A DNA stretch of 64,000 nucleotides from Pseudoflavonifractor sp. An44 (GTDB lineage Bacteria > Bacillota > Clostridia > Oscillospirales > Oscillospiraceae), in contig NZ_NFIH01000006.1 of NCBI RefSeq assembly GCF_002161675.1, forward strand, positions 1 through 64,000. The letters are read 5' to 3'. Position 1 is the first letter of the stretch. Each line of letters opens with the position of its first letter. This document shows positions 2,562 through 42,578 of this stretch, in pieces. Below the pieces are notes generated by a model, which had not been told where the DNA came from, did no database searches, and saw nothing but the letters and a program-made list of their open reading frames with translations. The position numbers were made by a program, and so were the translations under genes.

Positions 2562-3323
2562 ATAAAACTTTACAAAATCACCTTCAGCCCCACAGGCGGC
2601 ACCCAAAAGGCCGCTGACCTGCTGGTGGAGAACTGGAAGGCCCAGTCCATTTCGCTGGACCTCACTGACCCCAATGCCCACTTCTCAGATGTCTCCCTAA
2701 CCGCAGAAGATGTGGCTGTCATTGCCGTGCCCTCCTACGCTGGCCGGGTCCCCGCCCCCGCCGTCCAGCGTCTAACCGCCATGCAGGGCAACGGCGCCCG
2801 GGCGGTGCTGGTGTGCGTGTATGGCAACCGGGCCTATGAGGACACTCTGGTGGAGTTGGAGGACGCCGCCGTCCAGGCGGGCTTCCAGGTGGTGGCCGGA
2901 GTGGCCGCCATTGCCGAACACTCCATCGCCCACCAGTATGCCGCCGGACGTCCAGACAGCCAGGACAAGCAGCAATTGCAGGACTTTGGACAAAAAATTT
3001 GGGATAAGCTGCAAGCCGGAGATCACTCCCAGCCCGCGCTGCCCGGCAACCGCCCCTACAAAAAGGCGGGCGGAGTCGGCATGGTGCCCAAGCCCTCCAA
3101 GGACTGCAACCGCTGCGGCCTGTGTGCCCAGCAGTGCCCCGTCCAGGCCATTGACCCCGCCGACCCCAGCCGCACCGACAAGGAGCTGTGTATTTCCTGC
3201 ATGCGCTGTGTGGCCGTGTGCCCCAAGGGTGCCCGGAAGGTAAACCCCGTCATGCTCACCGCCGCACAGGTGGCCTTGAAGAAGGTTTGCTCGGATCGGA
3301 AAGAGGGAGAGCTGTTCCTGTAA
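2562..3323 (+). CDS. EFR1-type flavo-ferredoxin with apparent ATA start
   Basis: A flavodoxin-like domain (FSPTGGT phosphate loop near the N-terminus) is joined to a C-terminal 2[4Fe-4S] ferredoxin with CNRCGLCAQQCP and CISCMRCVAVCP. The architecture matches EFR1-family electron carriers of anaerobes. Relatives begin with M-K-L-Y-K-I-T-F; here the codon in that place (2562) is ATA. A good SD (aaaaggag) sits 8 nt before it, and no ATG, GTG or TTG exists in frame between the upstream stop (2535) and a GTG at 2625 that would delete the flavin loop. Either ATA is used weakly or the start was lost. Product from ATA: 253 residues. A tiny ATG frame (2539-2565) overlaps the site. Confidence 0.8.
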   Translation: MKLYKITFSPTGGTQKAADLLVENWKAQSISLDLTDPNAHFSDVSLTAEDVAVIAVPSYAGRVPAPAVQRLTAMQGNGARAVLVCVYGNRAYEDTLVELEDAAVQAGFQVVAGVAAIAEHSIAHQYAAGRPDSQDKQQLQDFGQKIWDKLQAGDHSQPALPGNRPYKKAGGVGMVPKPSKDCNRCGLCAQQCPVQAIDPADPSRTDKELCISCMRCVAVCPKGARKVNPVMLTAAQVALKKVCSDRKEGELFL

Positions 3324-3492: not shown

Positions 3493-4029
3493 ATGAGGAA
3501 ACACGTTTTGGTCATCTCCACCAGCCTGCGCTCCCGCAGCAATTCCCATCTGCTGGCCCAGCAGTTCGCCCAGGGCGCTCAGGAAGCCGGTCACCAGGTG
3601 GAGCTTGTCTCCCTGCAAGGGAAACAGCTGCACTTCTGCAACGGCTGCATGGCCTGTCTGGAGGCCCATCGGTGTGTCATTGAGGACGACGCCAACGCCA
3701 TTGTGGAGAAGATGGGGGCGGCAGATGTCATCTGTTTTGCCACTCCGGTCTACTATTATGAGATGGCCGGTCAGATGAAGACCCTGCTGGACCGGGCCAA
3801 CTCCCTGTATGACTCCGCCTACGCCTTCCGGGACATCTATCTGCTCACCGCCTCCGCCGAGGAGGAGGACAGCGCCTCGGATGGACCTGTTCACGGCCTC
3901 AACGGCTGGATTGCCTGCTTTGAACGGGCCCGACTGGCGGGCGTGGTCCGGGGCGGCGGCGCCAACGACCCCGGCGAGATGGGCCAGGACAAGCTGGCCG
4001 CTGCCTACCAGATGGGCAAGAACCTGTAA
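3493..4029 (+). CDS. NAD(P)H-dependent FMN reductase / flavodoxin-fold oxidoreductase
   Basis: This 178-residue protein has the flavodoxin-like fold of NADPH-dependent FMN reductases: an N-terminal strand and phosphate loop ISTSLRSRSNSHLL, a Cys-containing HFCNGCMACL segment as in iron-sulfur flavoproteins, and the FATPVYYYEMAGQMKTLLDR segment. The two Cys in CNGCMAC could bind a cluster or act in thiol chemistry; that is unproven. The start has an excellent SD (aaggaggaac). It is the first of three closely spaced genes (14-bp gaps), with a hydrolase and a decarboxylase-cupin protein, suggesting a small redox/detoxification operon. Confidence 0.85.
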   Translation: MRKHVLVISTSLRSRSNSHLLAQQFAQGAQEAGHQVELVSLQGKQLHFCNGCMACLEAHRCVIEDDANAIVEKMGAADVICFATPVYYYEMAGQMKTLLDRANSLYDSAYAFRDIYLLTASAEEEDSASDGPVHGLNGWIACFERARLAGVVRGGGANDPGEMGQDKLAAAYQMGKNL

Positions 4030-4043
4030 GGAGGGAATACGCC

Positions 4044-5018
4044 ATGGAATCCAAGTACAACGGTTATTCCTTCCCCCTCCGGGACACCGTGCGCCGGGAG
4101 AAGGTGAAGTTCCACAACCGCTACGGCATTGAGCTGGCGGGAGACCTGTACCTGCCCCAGGATGCAACGGGTAAGCTGGCCGCTGTGGCGGTGTCCGGCC
4201 CCTTCGGAGCGGTAAAGGAGCAGTGCTCCGGGCTGTACGCCGAAGAGCTGGCCAGCCGTGGCTTTGCCGCTCTGGCCTTTGACCCCTCCTTTATCGGAGA
4301 GAGCGGCGGGGCGGTGCGCAACGTGGCCTCCCCCGACATCAACACCGAGGACTTCTCCGCCGCCGTGGACTTTTTGGCCACCCGAGACTTTGTGGATGGG
4401 GAGAAGATCGGCATTCTGGGTATCTGCGGCTTTGGCGGCATGGCCCTCAACGCCGCCGCCATGGACACCCGCATCAAGGCCACCGTCACCTCCACCATGT
4501 ACGACATGAGCCGGGTCAACGCCAAGGGCTACTTTGACTCCACCGACAGCGCTGACGCCCGGTACGAGATGAAACAAGCCCTCAACGCCCAGCGCACCCA
4601 GGACTACCAGTCCGGCACCTACGCCCGGGCCGGGGGTGTGGTGGACCCGCTGCCCGAGGACGCCCCCTTCTTCCTCAAGGACTACTACGACTACTACAAG
4701 ACCCAGCGGGGGTACACCGAGCGGTCCCTCAACTCCAATGACGGCTGGAACGTGACCTCTTCCCTGTCCTTTGTCAACATGCCCATTCTGCACTACACCA
4801 ATGAGATTCGCAGTGCCGTTCTAATGCTCCACGGGGAAAAGGCCCACTCCTGCTATTTCAGCCGGGACGCCTTCGCCCACATGGTGGAAGGCAACCCCTA
4901 CACCGCCAACAAGGAGTTGCTCATCATCCCCGACGCCGTCCACACCGATCTATATGACCGGAAGGACATCATTCCCTTTGACAAGATCACAAGTTTCTTC
5001 CACGCGTATTTGGTATAA
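4044..5018 (+). CDS. Alpha/beta hydrolase with a cysteine in the nucleophile elbow
   Basis: This 324-residue protein is an alpha/beta hydrolase related to dienelactone hydrolases and the YcjY-like group. The nucleophile elbow reads GILGICGFGG, with Cys where most esterases have Ser, as in dienelactone hydrolase. A late Asp/His pair fits IPDAVHTDLY near the C-terminus. No signal peptide is seen, so it is cytoplasmic. It lies 14 bp after the flavin reductase and 14 bp before the next gene. Substrate unknown; a lactone or small ester fits the neighbouring carboxymuconolactone-decarboxylase-like gene. Confidence 0.82.
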   Translation: MESKYNGYSFPLRDTVRREKVKFHNRYGIELAGDLYLPQDATGKLAAVAVSGPFGAVKEQCSGLYAEELASRGFAALAFDPSFIGESGGAVRNVASPDINTEDFSAAVDFLATRDFVDGEKIGILGICGFGGMALNAAAMDTRIKATVTSTMYDMSRVNAKGYFDSTDSADARYEMKQALNAQRTQDYQSGTYARAGGVVDPLPEDAPFFLKDYYDYYKTQRGYTERSLNSNDGWNVTSSLSFVNMPILHYTNEIRSAVLMLHGEKAHSCYFSRDAFAHMVEGNPYTANKELLIIPDAVHTDLYDRKDIIPFDKITSFFHAYLV

Positions 5019-5032
5019 AGGAGACCTTTAAC

Positions 5033-5785
5033 ATGGCAGTAAAGCAGACCGCAGGCCGGGACGCTCTGGGTAAGTTTGCCCCCAAGTTTGCCCAGTTGAA
5101 TGACGATGTATTGTTCGGAGAGGTGTGGAGCCGGGAAGACAAACTCTCCCTTCGGGACCGCTCCCTGGTCACCGTGGTGGCCCTCATGGCCCAGGGGCTG
5201 GTGGACAGCTCCTTCCAGTATCACCTGACCACCGCCAAGCAAAACGGCATCACCCGACAGGAAATTTCCGAGATTCTCACCCACGCCGCCTTCTACGCTG
5301 GCTGGCCCAAAGCCTGGGCCGCCTTCCGCATGGCCAAAGAGGTGTGGGCGGAGGAAGATGACGCGGACGGCAAAGCCCAGCATCAGCAGGAGATGGTCTT
5401 CCCCATCGGCGCGCCCAACGATGGCTTTGCCCAGTATTTCGTGGGCCAAAGCTACCTGCACCCCCTGTCCACCAGCCAGGTGGGGGTGTTCAATGTGACC
5501 TTTGAGCCCGGTTGCCGCAACAACTGGCACATCCACCACGCCACCCAGGGCGGCGGTCAAATGCTGATCTGTGTGGCCGGGCGTGGCTACTATCAGGAGT
5601 GGGGCAAGGAGGCCCAGGAGCTGCACCCCGGGGATGTGGTAAACATCCCCACTGGGGTCAAGCACTGGCACGGGGCCGCCCCCGACAGCTGGTTCTCTCA
5701 CTTGGCTCTGGAGGTTCCCGGTGAGAACAGCTCCAACGAATGGCTGGAGGCCGTCTCCGACAAGGAGTACAACAAACTCAAGTAA
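5033..5785 (+). CDS. Carboxymuconolactone decarboxylase-like domain fused to a cupin
   Basis: This 250-residue protein has two modules. Residues about 15-105 form an AhpD/CMD-like helical domain (LRDRSLVTVVALMAQG, then LTHAAFYAGWPKAW). Residues about 145-240 form a cupin with a metal-binding pattern (NNWHIHHA ... GHxP-type PTGVKHWHG). The CMD segment lacks an obvious CxxC redox pair, so peroxidase activity of the AhpD type is unlikely. CMD-cupin fusions are frequent near flavin oxidoreductases in Firmicutes and Bacteroidetes. Last gene of the operon, followed by a strong terminator. Good SD (aaaggagacc). Confidence 0.85.
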   Translation: MAVKQTAGRDALGKFAPKFAQLNDDVLFGEVWSREDKLSLRDRSLVTVVALMAQGLVDSSFQYHLTTAKQNGITRQEISEILTHAAFYAGWPKAWAAFRMAKEVWAEEDDADGKAQHQQEMVFPIGAPNDGFAQYFVGQSYLHPLSTSQVGVFNVTFEPGCRNNWHIHHATQGGGQMLICVAGRGYYQEWGKEAQELHPGDVVNIPTGVKHWHGAAPDSWFSHLALEVPGENSSNEWLEAVSDKEYNKLK

Positions 5786-37882: not shown

Positions 37883-37914
37883 CAGAAATACTCCATTCTT
37901 CAGGAGGTTAGGCA

Positions 37915-38022
37915 ATGGTAAACCGCATCCACCGCTTTCATCATGCAGTCGTGATGCAGCCCGTAGTCCCTGCTGATCCAGCAGAACAACGGGCTTACAT
38001 TGCCATACACTTTTTCAGGTGA
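37915..38022 (+). CDS. Possible 35-residue leader peptide before the methyltransferase
   Basis: A short frame with a perfect SD (aggaggt) and ATG encodes MVNRIHRFHHAVVMQP and on to AYIAIHFFR. Its second half overlaps a hairpin (gcccgt ... acgggc enclosing ctgct/agcag, 37959-37994) and it ends 28 bp before a strong terminator and 99 bp before the methyltransferase gene. The arrangement is that of translation-controlled attenuation, known for ribosome-targeting drug-resistance genes and amino-acid operons. Expression of the peptide is unproven. Confidence 0.5.
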   Translation: MVNRIHRFHHAVVMQPVVPADPAEQRAYIAIHFFR

Positions 38023-38050
38023 TTTGAGTATATTTCGAATCTGATAAAGC

Positions 38051-38097
38051 AAAACGCAGTGCAGGCTATGAGCAACTCTTAGCCTGCACTGCGTTTT
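38051..38097 (+). terminator. Terminator inside the methyltransferase leader (attenuator)
   Basis: A perfect 18-bp stem (aaaacgcagtgcaggcta and complement) ending in a T run lies 25 bp before the methyltransferase ATG. If it only ended the hydratase transcript it would be 170 bp late, so readthrough control of the next gene is likely. Confidence 0.75.
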
Positions 38098-38121
38098 ATA
38101 CTTTGTATAGGAGGTTTCGAT

Positions 38122-38910
38122 ATGGAAACGAAGGACTCTTTAACCAATTATTATGAGTCATACGATGAAGAAGGTCGTCTTCTCTCAAAACATGGAATGG
38201 TGGAGTATATCACCACCATGAAATACATTGAAAGGTATCTCCAGCCTAATATGCGGGTCTTGGAGATTGGGGCCGGAACGGGGCGATACAGCCACGCTTT
38301 GGCACAAAAAGGCTATCGAGTGGATGCCGTGGAATTAGTGGAGCATAACATCGAACTCTTCCAGCAAAACACCCTGGAAGGCGAACCGGTGACCATCACC
38401 CAAGGCAATGCTATGGATTTGTCTGATTTTGAGAGCGATACGTATGATATCACTCTGCTGCTCGGTCCCATGTATCATCTATTCACAAGAGAAGATCAGC
38501 TAAAAGCCTTATCAGAAGCCATCCGAGTGACAAAGAAAGGCGGTATCATTTTTACCGCCTATTGTATGGGGGATGCAAGCGTTTTGTCATACGGTTTTGT
38601 TCGTGGCGAAATCTACAACATTATTGAGAAATGTGAGGTCAACCCGGAAACATTTGATACTTTCTCAAAGCCGTGGGACATATTTGAGTTGTACCGAAAG
38701 GAAGATATTGATCGGCTCCGTTCCCAGTTTCCTGTTACGCAGCTTCACTTTGTTGCCTCCGATGGCTACACCAATCATATGAGGGAAACCGTAGACCAAA
38801 TGGATGACCGAATGTATGACCTGTACCTAACATATCACCTTGCAACCTGCGAAAGACAAGATATGATTGGTTACTCGCATCACACACTTGATATATTCCG
38901 AAAGGAGTAG
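38122..38910 (+). CDS. Class I SAM-dependent methyltransferase
   Basis: This 262-residue enzyme has SAM motif I VLEIGAGTGRYSHAL, an acidic end of strand 2 (VDAVELVEHN) and motif TYDITLLLGPMYHL. G+C is lower than in neighbours, suggesting acquisition. SD aggaggt. Methyltransferases of this size next to a leader peptide and terminator are sometimes resistance determinants, but no specific target (rRNA, quinone, small molecule) can be read from the sequence. Confidence 0.85.
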   Translation: METKDSLTNYYESYDEEGRLLSKHGMVEYITTMKYIERYLQPNMRVLEIGAGTGRYSHALAQKGYRVDAVELVEHNIELFQQNTLEGEPVTITQGNAMDLSDFESDTYDITLLLGPMYHLFTREDQLKALSEAIRVTKKGGIIFTAYCMGDASVLSYGFVRGEIYNIIEKCEVNPETFDTFSKPWDIFELYRKEDIDRLRSQFPVTQLHFVASDGYTNHMRETVDQMDDRMYDLYLTYHLATCERQDMIGYSHHTLDIFRKE

Positions 38911-38929
38911 AGAAATGGTGCACGTTTTG

Positions 38930-39943: not shown

Positions 39944-40498
39944 ATGGACCGCAGACAACAAAAGACCCGGGCCGCCATTGTGCAGGCCTTTACCCTGCTG
40001 GTGCAGAAAAAGCCCTTTGAGCGCATCACCGTCCAGGAGATCATCGACCAGGCCAACGTAGGCCGCAGCACCTTCTATGCCCACTTTGAGACCAAGGATG
40101 AGCTGCTGCGCTCCATGTGCACAGACATCTTCCACCATGTGTTCCACCACGCCCTGCCCCAGGAGCAGGAGGCGGGGTGTGACACCGGGCTGCAAAACCT
40201 CCAGGTGAAGCTGGGACACGTGCTCTACCACCTGGGAGAGCACAAATCGGTCTTGAAGGGCATCCTGTCCAGCCAGAGCAGCCCCCTGTTTCTGGGCTAT
40301 CTGAGTGAGTACCTGTACCAGCTCTTCCAGGGATATACCGATGAATTCGACCCCCGCATTCCCCGGGACTTTCTCCTCCACCACCTCACGGGCTCCTTCT
40401 GCGAGGCGGTAAAGTGGTGGGTCAACGGTCCCCAGCCCCAGCCGCCGGAGACGGTGGCCTCCTATTTCATGATGACCTTGGGCCACTTTGCCCCATAA
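39944..40498 (+). CDS. TetR/AcrR-family regulator
   Basis: This 184-residue regulator has an N-terminal TetR helix-turn-helix (ITVQEIIDQANVGRSTFYAH, FETKDELLRSM) and a C-terminal domain like those of AcrR relatives in Firmicutes (FLLHHLTGSFCEAVKWWV). The ATG at 39944 follows aggaggcg. It is divergent from the EamA transporter. Confidence 0.92.
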   Translation: MDRRQQKTRAAIVQAFTLLVQKKPFERITVQEIIDQANVGRSTFYAHFETKDELLRSMCTDIFHHVFHHALPQEQEAGCDTGLQNLQVKLGHVLYHLGEHKSVLKGILSSQSSPLFLGYLSEYLYQLFQGYTDEFDPRIPRDFLLHHLTGSFCEAVKWWVNGPQPQPPETVASYFMMTLGHFAP

Positions 40499-40530
40499 AA
40501 AACGGGTTGCACTCAACGTGCAACCCGTTT
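40499..40530. terminator. Bidirectional terminator between the TetR-type gene and bioY
   Basis: A 12-bp stem (aaacgggttgca and complement) with a 7-nt loop. The last codons and stop of bioY lie inside it. Confidence 0.85.
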
Positions 40531-41070
40531 CTCTTTATAAAAGCCCGCCTGATCCAGTCGGCGGCGCAGCAGGCTGCCCAGACCGATGGCAATGACGATC
40601 TTCCCCAGGTCAAAGGGAATGAAGGGGGTCACGCACAGCCCCAGGGCCGCCCCCACGGTGTAGCCCCCCTGCCAGCAGAACCAGGCGGTGCCCAACAGAT
40701 AACACAGGGCCGTGCCCAACACAAGCCCCAGGGCGTGGAGCCACTTGGAGCGGGTGTGGTCAATGATCCAGCCCCCCACCAGGGCCATGGGCAAATAGCC
40801 CAGCAAATAGCCCCCGGTGGGCCCCAGCAGCTTGGCCGCTCCACTGCCAAACCCGGAAAACACCGGGAGACCGGCCAGACCCACCAGCAAATACACCAGG
40901 CAGCTCACCGTTCCCCACTTCCACCCCAGCAGATACACCGCCAGAAAGATGGCCAGGTTGGCAAAGGCCACGGGCACTGGGCCAATGGGCACCGAAAAGG
41001 GGCTGAGGACACAGATCACCGCCGCCAGTACCCCGCAGCTACACAACTTTTGTATGGTCTCATGCTTCAT
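40513..41070 (-). CDS. bioY: Biotin transporter substrate-binding protein BioY
   Basis: This 185-residue membrane protein has six helices and the BioY motif GPTGGYLLGY with ALCVTPFIPFD-like LCVTPFIPFDLGK. It captures biotin and works alone or with a shared ECF energising module, none of which is encoded here. The start at 41070 follows ggaggg; the frame to 41214 includes the operator. Control by BirA is indicated by the dyad in front of the gene. Confidence 0.93.
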   Translation of the reverse strand: MKHETIQKLCSCGVLAAVICVLSPFSVPIGPVPVAFANLAIFLAVYLLGWKWGTVSCLVYLLVGLAGLPVFSGFGSGAAKLLGPTGGYLLGYLPMALVGGWIIDHTRSKWLHALGLVLGTALCYLLGTAWFCWQGGYTVGAALGLCVTPFIPFDLGKIVIAIGLGSLLRRRLDQAGFYKEKRVAR

Positions 41071-41207: not shown

Positions 41208-41783
41208 GTGGCAAACGTGAAGTATCTATTCCAGCGCGTGATGAATATGAACTACAAGGCCATGTGGGAGAAAATCAGCTCCATCCACAAGAAGACCGGG
41301 CGGTCCCGGCTGGCCATTTTCCGGGACATGAAGGACTGTGCCGTGAAGTACGGAGCGGGGTATATGGACTACGACCTGTTTGAGATGTACAATCTCACAC
41401 CAGAGCAGCGGGACACCTACCTCACCCGAGGCCGCAACAACGCCCTGGTGGTGAAGTACAACGACAAGGCCTACACGGGCCAATTTGACGACAAGGTGCA
41501 GTTCAACACTCTCTTTGGCAAGTACCTGCACCGGGACTGGGTGCCAGTGACCGGGGACAACCGGGAACAGGTGATGGCATTTTTGGCCGCCCAGGTCATC
41601 CCCCAGGTGGGGTATGTGGGCTGGGACGTGTGCTTTACCCCCAACGGCCCCTGTCTGGTGGAGGGCAACCCCTTCCCCGGCCACGACATCTATCAGCTGC
41701 CTGTGCACACCCCGGACAAGATCGGCATCATGCCCCGGTTCCGGGAGATTGAGGCCGAAGAAAAAATGATGAATGAAGAATGA
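41208..41783 (+). pseudogene. Sugar-transfer-associated ATP-grasp gene with the catalytic core deleted
   Basis: The frame (191 codons from GTG 41208 behind gaggg) begins like the ATP-grasp_ST family (IHKKTGRSRLAIFRDMKDCA, YGAGYMDYDLFEMYNL, TYLTRGRNN). After REQVMAFLA it jumps straight to QVGYVGWDVCFTPNGP and EGNPFPGHDIYQLP, the end of the family. About 130 residues holding the ATP-binding core are gone, yet frame and both ends are perfect. Normal length is about 320. Either an in-frame deletion pseudogene or a minimal protein of changed role. Confidence 0.75.
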
Positions 41784-41838
41784 TTGTGTGCCGCCTCCTT
41801 GCGGCACGGATTCCGATTTGTCAGAGACATGATGAAAT

Positions 41839-42025
41839 AAAAGCCCTCGGCAGAGTTTTCCCGCCCGCAGGCGGGAAAATAAACTAAAATCACGTTTTTT
41901 CCGGGGACATGCGCATCGGAAAAAACACTTCTCAGCCCGCCAGTGTGGCCTTGGGTCGCCCTTTGACCCAAGGGTGCATGCAGCGGGCTGCATCCCCTCG
42001 AAAAAATGCTTGCATTTTTGAGAAT
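41839..42025 (-). repeat. About 185-bp structured repeat, copy B (inverted)
   Basis: The reverse complement of this stretch matches 33413-33596 nearly base for base, with the same four hairpins. It lies after the gutted ATP-grasp gene and before a terminator. Confidence 0.85.
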
Positions 42026-42026
42026 C

Positions 42027-42071
42027 ATGTAAGAAGCCCTCGGTTCCTTGCGGAACCGAGGGCTTCTTACA
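42027..42071 (-). terminator. Terminator of the GNAT/ABC operon
   Basis: A perfect stem of about 20 bp (gtaagaagccctcggttcc and complement) with a 4-base loop ends 4 bp before the GNAT stop codon side. Confidence 0.85.
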
Positions 42072-42074
42072 TGA

Positions 42075-42578
42075 TCAAAGATAATAGGCCAATCTAGGGC
42101 TGCCATCCTCCAAATAGATGGTGCCGCAGGGGGTGAACCCCATCTTCTCCAGCAGCTGCTGCATGGGGATGTTCTTCTCATGGGTGTCGATGCGCAGCTG
42201 GCGGCAGTGGGCCCGGCACCAGGCCAGGCAGTGGGCCGCCGCCCCGGTGCGGGAGGCTCCGGTGGCCAGGCGGTGCACCACGCCATAGTCCCCGTTGTCC
42301 GGCCACCCCTCCCCTTCAATGTGGGCGTAGGTGGGCTCTCCCTTGGTGTGGAAGGAGAAGGCTGCGGCCAAGCGGCCATTTTCCATACACACAAAGCTGT
42401 ACCCCAGGTTGATATCCTGCTGGATCTGCTCCAGGGTGGGCTTATCCTCCCCCCACTGGTCCGGGTTGCCGGACTCCCGCATAAAGGCCCGGGCCTGGGC
42501 GTAGAGCTGCTCCAGGGCAGGCAGATCCCGGATATTGCCCCGACGAATCAAAAAATTGGTTCCACTGTTCATGTTCAT
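42075..42578 (-). CDS. GNAT-family N-acetyltransferase
   Basis: This 167-residue protein has the GNAT fold: an N-terminal IRRGNIRDLPALEQLYAQAR, GYSFVCMENGRLAAAFSF, and a late LRIDTHEKNIPMQQLLEKMGF typical of acetyl-CoA binding and the final helix-strand. The acetyl acceptor is unknown. It overlaps the FtsX-type permease gene by 4 bp (ATGA) and is the last gene of that operon. Confidence 0.85.
   Translation of the reverse strand: MNMNSGTNFLIRRGNIRDLPALEQLYAQARAFMRESGNPDQWGEDKPTLEQIQQDINLGYSFVCMENGRLAAAFSFHTKGEPTYAHIEGEGWPDNGDYGVVHRLATGASRTGAAAHCLAWCRAHCRQLRIDTHEKNIPMQQLLEKMGFTPCGTIYLEDGSPRLAYYL

Follow-up and report, generated by a model that had tools for sequence, protein, structure and literature searches.

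Organization of the locus

In the window, that is, the whole stretch of 64,000 nucleotides under analysis, a hydratase gene is followed by a leader open reading frame (ORF), a terminator hairpin and a gene for a class I SAM-dependent methyltransferase, designated here MTase1. The first-pass annotation, made from the sequence of the window, had described a 35-codon frame with a perfect Shine-Dalgarno (SD) sequence, overlapped by a hairpin and followed by an 18-bp terminator stem just before an AT-richer methyltransferase gene, and each of these elements is found at the locus. The leader ORF encodes the product MVNRIHRFHHAVVMQPVVPADPAEQRAYIAIHFFR and has the hairpin inside it, the terminator inverted repeat (38051-38072/38076-38097) is perfect over its outer 18 bp and is separated by 24 nt from the methyltransferase ATG, and the GC content amounts to 44.7% in the methyltransferase gene and 45.2% in the leader, against 66.1% in the hydratase gene. 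The features considered below are the following, P1 being a 10-bp helix that pairs the start of the leader ORF with its end:

37883-38917, + strand: acquired leader-MTase cassette, delimited by the GC step and by 5' and 3' comparison
37902-37907, + strand: SD of the leader ORF, AGGAGG, from the sequence and kept in relatives
37906-37917, + strand: P1 5' strand GGTTAGGCAATG, comprising the SD end, the spacer and the leader start codon
37915-38022, + strand: leader ORF, 35 codons
37958-37995, + strand: hairpin within the leader ORF, AGCCCGTAGT / ACAACGGGCT
37991-38008, + strand: near-invariant motif GGGCTTACATTGCCATAC, from the leaders of relatives and from the P1 and antiterminator pairings
37993-38002, + strand: antiterminator strand, part of the near-invariant motif
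37998-38008, + strand: P1 3' strand, part of the near-invariant motif
38021-38041, + strand: small hairpin 3' of the leader stop codon, from the fold
38051-38097, + strand: intrinsic terminator hairpin with a perfect 18-bp stem, from the fold and from covariation in relatives
38057-38066, + strand: terminator 5' arm CAGTGCAGGC, alternative partner of 37993-38002
38109-38114, + strand: SD of the methyltransferase, AGGAGG, from the sequence
38122-38910, + strand: MTase1, 262 aa (Pfam Methyltransf_25/11; AlphaFold pLDDT 93)
40496-40535, + strand: displaced native hydratase terminator (AAACGGGTTGCACTCAACGTGCAACCCGTTT), the same hairpin that stands behind the hydratase in the genomes G066 and G146

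The 258-nt leader of the window folds at -99.6 kcal/mol, as compared to -63.2 ± 4.7 kcal/mol for shuffled versions (z of -7.7), and the z value without the terminator is -4.6. The SD of the leader ORF overlaps the first helix, P1, and translation of this ORF is predicted.

Conservation and distribution of the leader

Relatives of the methyltransferase were confirmed by tblastn and their upstream regions were compared with the leader of the window. The leader recurs in 34 other loci, with E-values from 1e-8 to 1e-40, which is far beyond chance, and the family tabulated comprises 35 copies from gut Clostridia, the one in the window included. The relatives evidence a common order, in which a promoter TTGACA-17-TATAAT is followed by the SD, GRCAATG, the ORF, CGGGCTTRYATTGYYRTAC, a small hairpin and the terminator; the small hairpin after the leader stop is seen in group A and is variable in the other groups. 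Using R2, a covariance model of the leader 5' domain, further copies were retrieved in genomes of the same family and in another family of the same order. The genome of the window itself holds a second copy (L078, at G000:C31:4352-4449), which has its own promoter and sits before a GNAT-methyltransferase fusion ORF. A scan of 399 genomes of the phylum with the full model returned both own-genome copies and a minus-strand match produced by the window terminator; four matches in other genomes (E 0.0025-0.0055), alongside which no GNAT or methyltransferase genes were recognized, were set aside as chance.

No Rfam family matched the leader at gathering score, the sub-threshold matches being at chance level only. 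The proposal that leader ORF and attenuator act as a regulatory unit is borne out by the recurrence of the same leader before several enzyme genes: the two constitute a conserved regulatory unit, belonging to an attenuator family that is uncatalogued in Rfam. Phage or plasmid origin was considered and rejected, as the leader DNA is absent from the plasmid and phage collections searched and the leader pattern was not found in viral contigs. These contigs yielded no close MTase relative either, and more distant relatives of the enzyme were found in one plasmid record (57% identity) and one phage record (44% identity). A partly decayed copy was observed at about 540-632 of L043, where the terminator stem is retained and the leader ORF and the motif are gone.

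Mutually exclusive pairings within the leader

The leader start codon is part of P1 in every copy. Over the 35 leaders, 93% of the cells of the P1 alignment are standard pairs, against 20-49% in slid versions, and five of the ten pairs have double-sided changes, a number that only 18 of 500 shuffles reach (mean 2.7). Covariation in relatives also supports the terminator. An alternative antiterminator pairing, for which a search had been suggested, is found between 37993-38002 and 38057-38066, and by complementarity it exists in 35 of 35 leaders: the strand GCTTRYATTG can form 9-10 of 10 pairs with the terminator 5' arm in every one of them, the arms comprising ten different sequences and random 10-mers attaining 9 of 10 pairs with a P of 0.002. 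In the window 9 of the 10 pairs can form, the A-C mismatch being common to group A. The near invariance of the motif leaves almost no covariation to be seen in the antiterminator, whose support comes from complementarity. The two pairings are mutually exclusive, so that P1, once formed, would prevent the antiterminator from pairing with the terminator 5' arm.

We have computed partition functions for the 35 leaders on transcripts that end with the terminator 5' arm. Among the free transcripts P1 is dominant in 21, and once a ribosome footprint covers the start codon 31 favour the antiterminator; for the window this corresponds to a decrease of P1 from 0.77 to 0 and an increase of the antiterminator from 0.12 to 0.52. 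A ribosome in the middle of the ORF also frees the antiterminator, which then prevails in 20 of the 35 leaders, and the specificity for the start is thus a tendency only. Group B behaves differently, its antiterminator outcompeting P1 at equilibrium with no ribosome present, and co-transcriptional folding must be invoked for these leaders.

Reading frame and leader peptide

An ORF of 28-42 codons with a strong SD is open in every leader. Of the 34 leaders parsed, 33 have the stop codon 12-21 nt beyond the motif; the 35th (L070) was read by hand. The frame in which the motif is read differs, being frame 0 in group A, the fusions and others, frame 2 in group B, GNAT and MTase2 leaders, and frame 1 in the window and also, by hand, in L070. 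As a result of these differences the conserved 3' part translates as GLTLLY, GLYCRT or RAYIAI depending on the leader, and the fusion leaders are devoid of the Trp/Tyr residues. In the window, a net deletion of 2 nt with respect to the group A relatives places the 3' third of the ORF in a frame different from theirs. Substitution rates in the true frame (NG86) amount to a dS of 0.127 and a dN of 0.133 in group A, from 10 short sequences, and to 0.115 and 0.126 in group B, from 4 short sequences. The comparison with relatives, which had been proposed as a check on the leader peptide, therefore gives a divided answer: the RNA architecture, the start and the open frame are kept, and the peptide sequence, with dN close to dS, is not. 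As judged from these alignments, the leader retains its frame but not its amino acids.

These observations bear on the earlier suggestion that the leader is built as the translation-stalling attenuators of erm and msr genes, in which the ribosome is halted by a particular nascent peptide when the corresponding drug is present. Such attenuators depend on a conserved stalling peptide. The likeness is real, as a leader ORF and an attenuator stand ahead of a putative modifying enzyme, every leader has its ORF of this length with a strong SD, and a stretch such as PAYYWQNNGLTLLY recurs within group A. However, a conserved stalling peptide is absent from this family: the true-frame dN/dS of about 1 is not that of a peptide under purifying selection, the 3' part has three different readings, the fusion leaders lack Trp/Tyr, and the frame of the window is itself shifted. 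The comparable dN and dS values and the reading of the motif in three frames make peptide-specific stalling improbable, and the more probable event is an arrest on the leader start or close to it.

The same architecture would work with stalls caused by amino-acid or tRNA starvation, in which slow decoding of certain leader codons releases the terminator. Yet the leaders have no single-amino-acid run or enrichment in common, and the genes downstream encode GNAT and methyltransferase proteins rather than biosynthetic or tRNA-charging functions, which renders starvation sensing a highly improbable explanation. Conservation of the motif GGGCTTRYATTGYYRTAC in nucleotides, whatever the frame, could instead suggest a protein- or ligand-binding RNA of the riboswitch kind in which the ORF is incidental. 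Against this, the start codon, the SD, the open frame and the position of the stop are retained across three frames, the two alternative pairings account for the motif, and there is neither a compact structure resembling a ligand pocket nor an Rfam match; a riboswitch-like element is accordingly very unlikely.

Proposed mechanism and comparison with known systems

Taken as a whole, we consider that the leader is a ribosome-mediated transcription attenuator, with terminator, antiterminator and anti-antiterminator, common to small MTase/GNAT operons, and give this reading a probability of about two in three. By default, P1, which joins the leader SD and start codon to the end of the leader ORF, would sequester the antiterminator strand, the terminator would form and the enzyme genes would be off. 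A ribosome that halts on the leader start codon or just past it would cover the P1 5' strand, and the released GCUURYAUUG strand would pair with the terminator 5' arm, so that transcription would enter the enzyme genes. Given the usual footprint, a ribosome that has reached the stop codon, which lies 12-21 nt beyond the switch strand, would just clear this strand and let P1 re-form. As the peptide sequence hardly matters, the sensor would read an arrest at initiation or in early elongation, most plausibly caused by a compound that acts on the ribosome and is in turn acetylated or methylated by the enzymes. The leader thus probably turns on small acetyl- and methyltransferase genes in cells upon ribosome stalling, for example by an antibiotic, and a role in drug resistance is plausible. 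In such a case the upstream ORF (uORF) would be kept for being translated and not for its peptide.

An experimental precedent for a switch of this kind is vmlR, an ABC-F gene of Bacillus subtilis, in which the anti-antiterminator does not form when ribosomes are arrested at initiation (PMC9226507). There the start region of the uORF is in the anti-antiterminator, the antiterminator involves the terminator arm, and induction results from arrest at initiation and not from a peptide motif (PMC9226507), which is what we propose for the present leader. The two sequences are, however, unrelated; the vmlR uORF lies within SL-1, whereas the 28-42 codons of this leader span both P1 strands, and the gene downstream of vmlR's leader encodes a ribosome-protecting ATPase instead of an acetyl- or methyltransferase. 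The toiL uORF of topAI in Escherichia coli is a multipurpose sensor of several classes of ribosome-targeting drugs; tetracycline halts ribosomes on its start codon, and induction is also obtained with retapamulin (PMC12121999). It works on translation and Rho-dependent termination, whereas the present leader would act on an intrinsic terminator. In the open-access literature, outside which most subscription papers fall, no description of this leader was found, and the family is an undescribed variant of ribosome-mediated attenuation.

As this genome and its family carry genes of the tet(W) type, we have also analyzed tet leaders. By eye, the uORF start region of tet(M), tet(O) and tet(W) pairs with a strand that is also complementary to the terminator 5' arm. 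These leaders further contain a stretch of 22 nt (GGGCTTAGTTTTTTGTACCCAA) similar to the motif of the present leader. The leaders with this apparent three-way pairing are:

L124, 280-670: tet(M)/(O)/(W)-type leader
L125, 280-670: tet(M)/(O)/(W)-type leader
L115, 3322-3751, - strand: tet(M)/(O)/(W)-type leader

The R2 model gives the tet leaders 14 bits only (E 0.05-0.07). A matrix of the 22-nt motif scores 9-12 bits on tet(M), tet(O) and tet(W), a level equalled by no more than 2 of 2000 single-base shuffles; the L112 leader does not stand out from its shuffles in this way. In tet(M), differently from the present leader, the 22-nt stretch pairs inside a hairpin and not with the leader SD. A shared descent of the tet leaders and this one is possible from these similarities.

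Genes downstream of the leader

The leader precedes genes for MTase1, a second methyltransferase family (MTase2), GNAT acetyltransferases and GNAT-MTase fusions. MTase1 is alone downstream of the leader in the window; in nine loci (L036, L037, L038, L039, L041, L042, L045, L053 and L092) it has a GNAT gene within 6-36 nt behind it, and in L054 a GNAT-MTase fusion (3792-5153) is found downstream of MTase1, which places two methyltransferases and a GNAT under one leader. A GNAT gene stands behind the leader in L071, L072 and L076, GNAT-MTase1 fusion ORFs do so in L027, L073, L074, L075, L077 and L078, and MTase2 is found in L093, L094, L051 and L052, either by itself, accompanied by a GNAT gene or preceding MTase1. 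The GNAT and MTase1-like families are thus observed in one frame in the fusions and as separate neighbours in other genomes.

The AlphaFold model of MTase1 matches over its full length 2avn and CmoM, a tRNA U34 methyltransferase (TM 0.74), and its other good fold matches are small-molecule methyltransferases. None of the proteins tested scored above the cut-off of the curated NCBIfam resistance models, the Erm model giving the methyltransferase of the window 26.8 bits against a cut-off of 212. As attenuator leaders mark genes of translation stress, the orphan GNAT and methyltransferase genes of gut Clostridia become candidates for drug modification. It is conceivable, though we hold this wider reading only tentatively, that the leader marks undescribed inducible resistance operons of gut Clostridia, in which a peptide-independent switch precedes varying MTase, GNAT and fusion sets that would inactivate a ribosome-targeting compound or protect against it. 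The leader can be found with a simple model and suggests which inducers to try.

Distant relatives of MTase1 from Petroclostridium, Faecalicatena and C. difficile CD160 (L057, L060 and L061) have no leader; upstream of position 3001 in these loci, a TetR-looking ORF, so named by its sequence, occupies the place of the attenuator. In L048, a 193-aa ORF (2216-2797) that appears nucleotide-binding and kinase-like (GPHAVGKMT) lies directly 3' of the leader-MTase1 pair, and matched neither Pfam nor NCBIfam models within the limits applied.

The copy in the window

The similarity of the window to the relatives begins near 37893 and ends after AGAGAAA (38917), just past the MTase stop, where in several relatives the GNAT gene continues. 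In the same-genus genomes G066 and G146 the hydratase is 91% identical and is followed by the hairpin AACGGGTTGCACTTAAGGTGCAACCCGTT and a bioY-like gene, with roughly 200 bp of other sequence between hydratase stop and hairpin in G146. In the window this hairpin is found at about 40.5 kb, so that about 2.6 kb separates the hydratase from its own terminator. The inserted segment of this length carries the leader-MTase pair, a DMT-type transporter and a TetR-like regulator, the last two named by sequence. We have thus discarded 38051-38097 as the end of the hydratase transcript, since in these two genomes the hydratase is followed by the other terminator; the possibility, raised at the outset, that the terminator merely ends this transcript behind a leader that is not conserved fails on both counts, as the leader recurs and the hydratase terminator is elsewhere.

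Unlike most relatives, the leader of the window has no TTGACA-17-TATAAT promoter, and a distance of 32 nt separates the end of the hydratase stop codon from the leader start codon downstream. Transcription therefore comes probably from the hydratase: the window copy has lost the promoter of its relatives and probably depends on read-through. In respect to this copy only, it might be asked whether it is a decaying remnant, acquired without a promoter and either silent or merely read through, a reading compatible with an attenuator at the level of the family. Besides the missing promoter, the junction with the hydratase end, the truncation past the MTase stop and the frame shift in the leader point in this direction. 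However, the MTase ORF is intact and 90% identical to that of Negativibacillus, P1, the antiterminator (9 of 10 pairs) and the terminator, with its perfect 18-bp stem, are retained, and frame 1 is also present in L070, which has a TTGACA/TATAAT-like promoter. We thus regard decay as rather doubtful, and the window copy as a member of the attenuator family.

Further downstream, at about 41780-42100 of the window, we have observed an intergenic stretch that spans roughly 200 bp and contains inverted repeats (CTCGAAAATGC...GCATTTTCGAG), and a similar-looking one lies past the hydratase stop in L097 (G146); this sequence is perhaps a dispersed miniature repeat.
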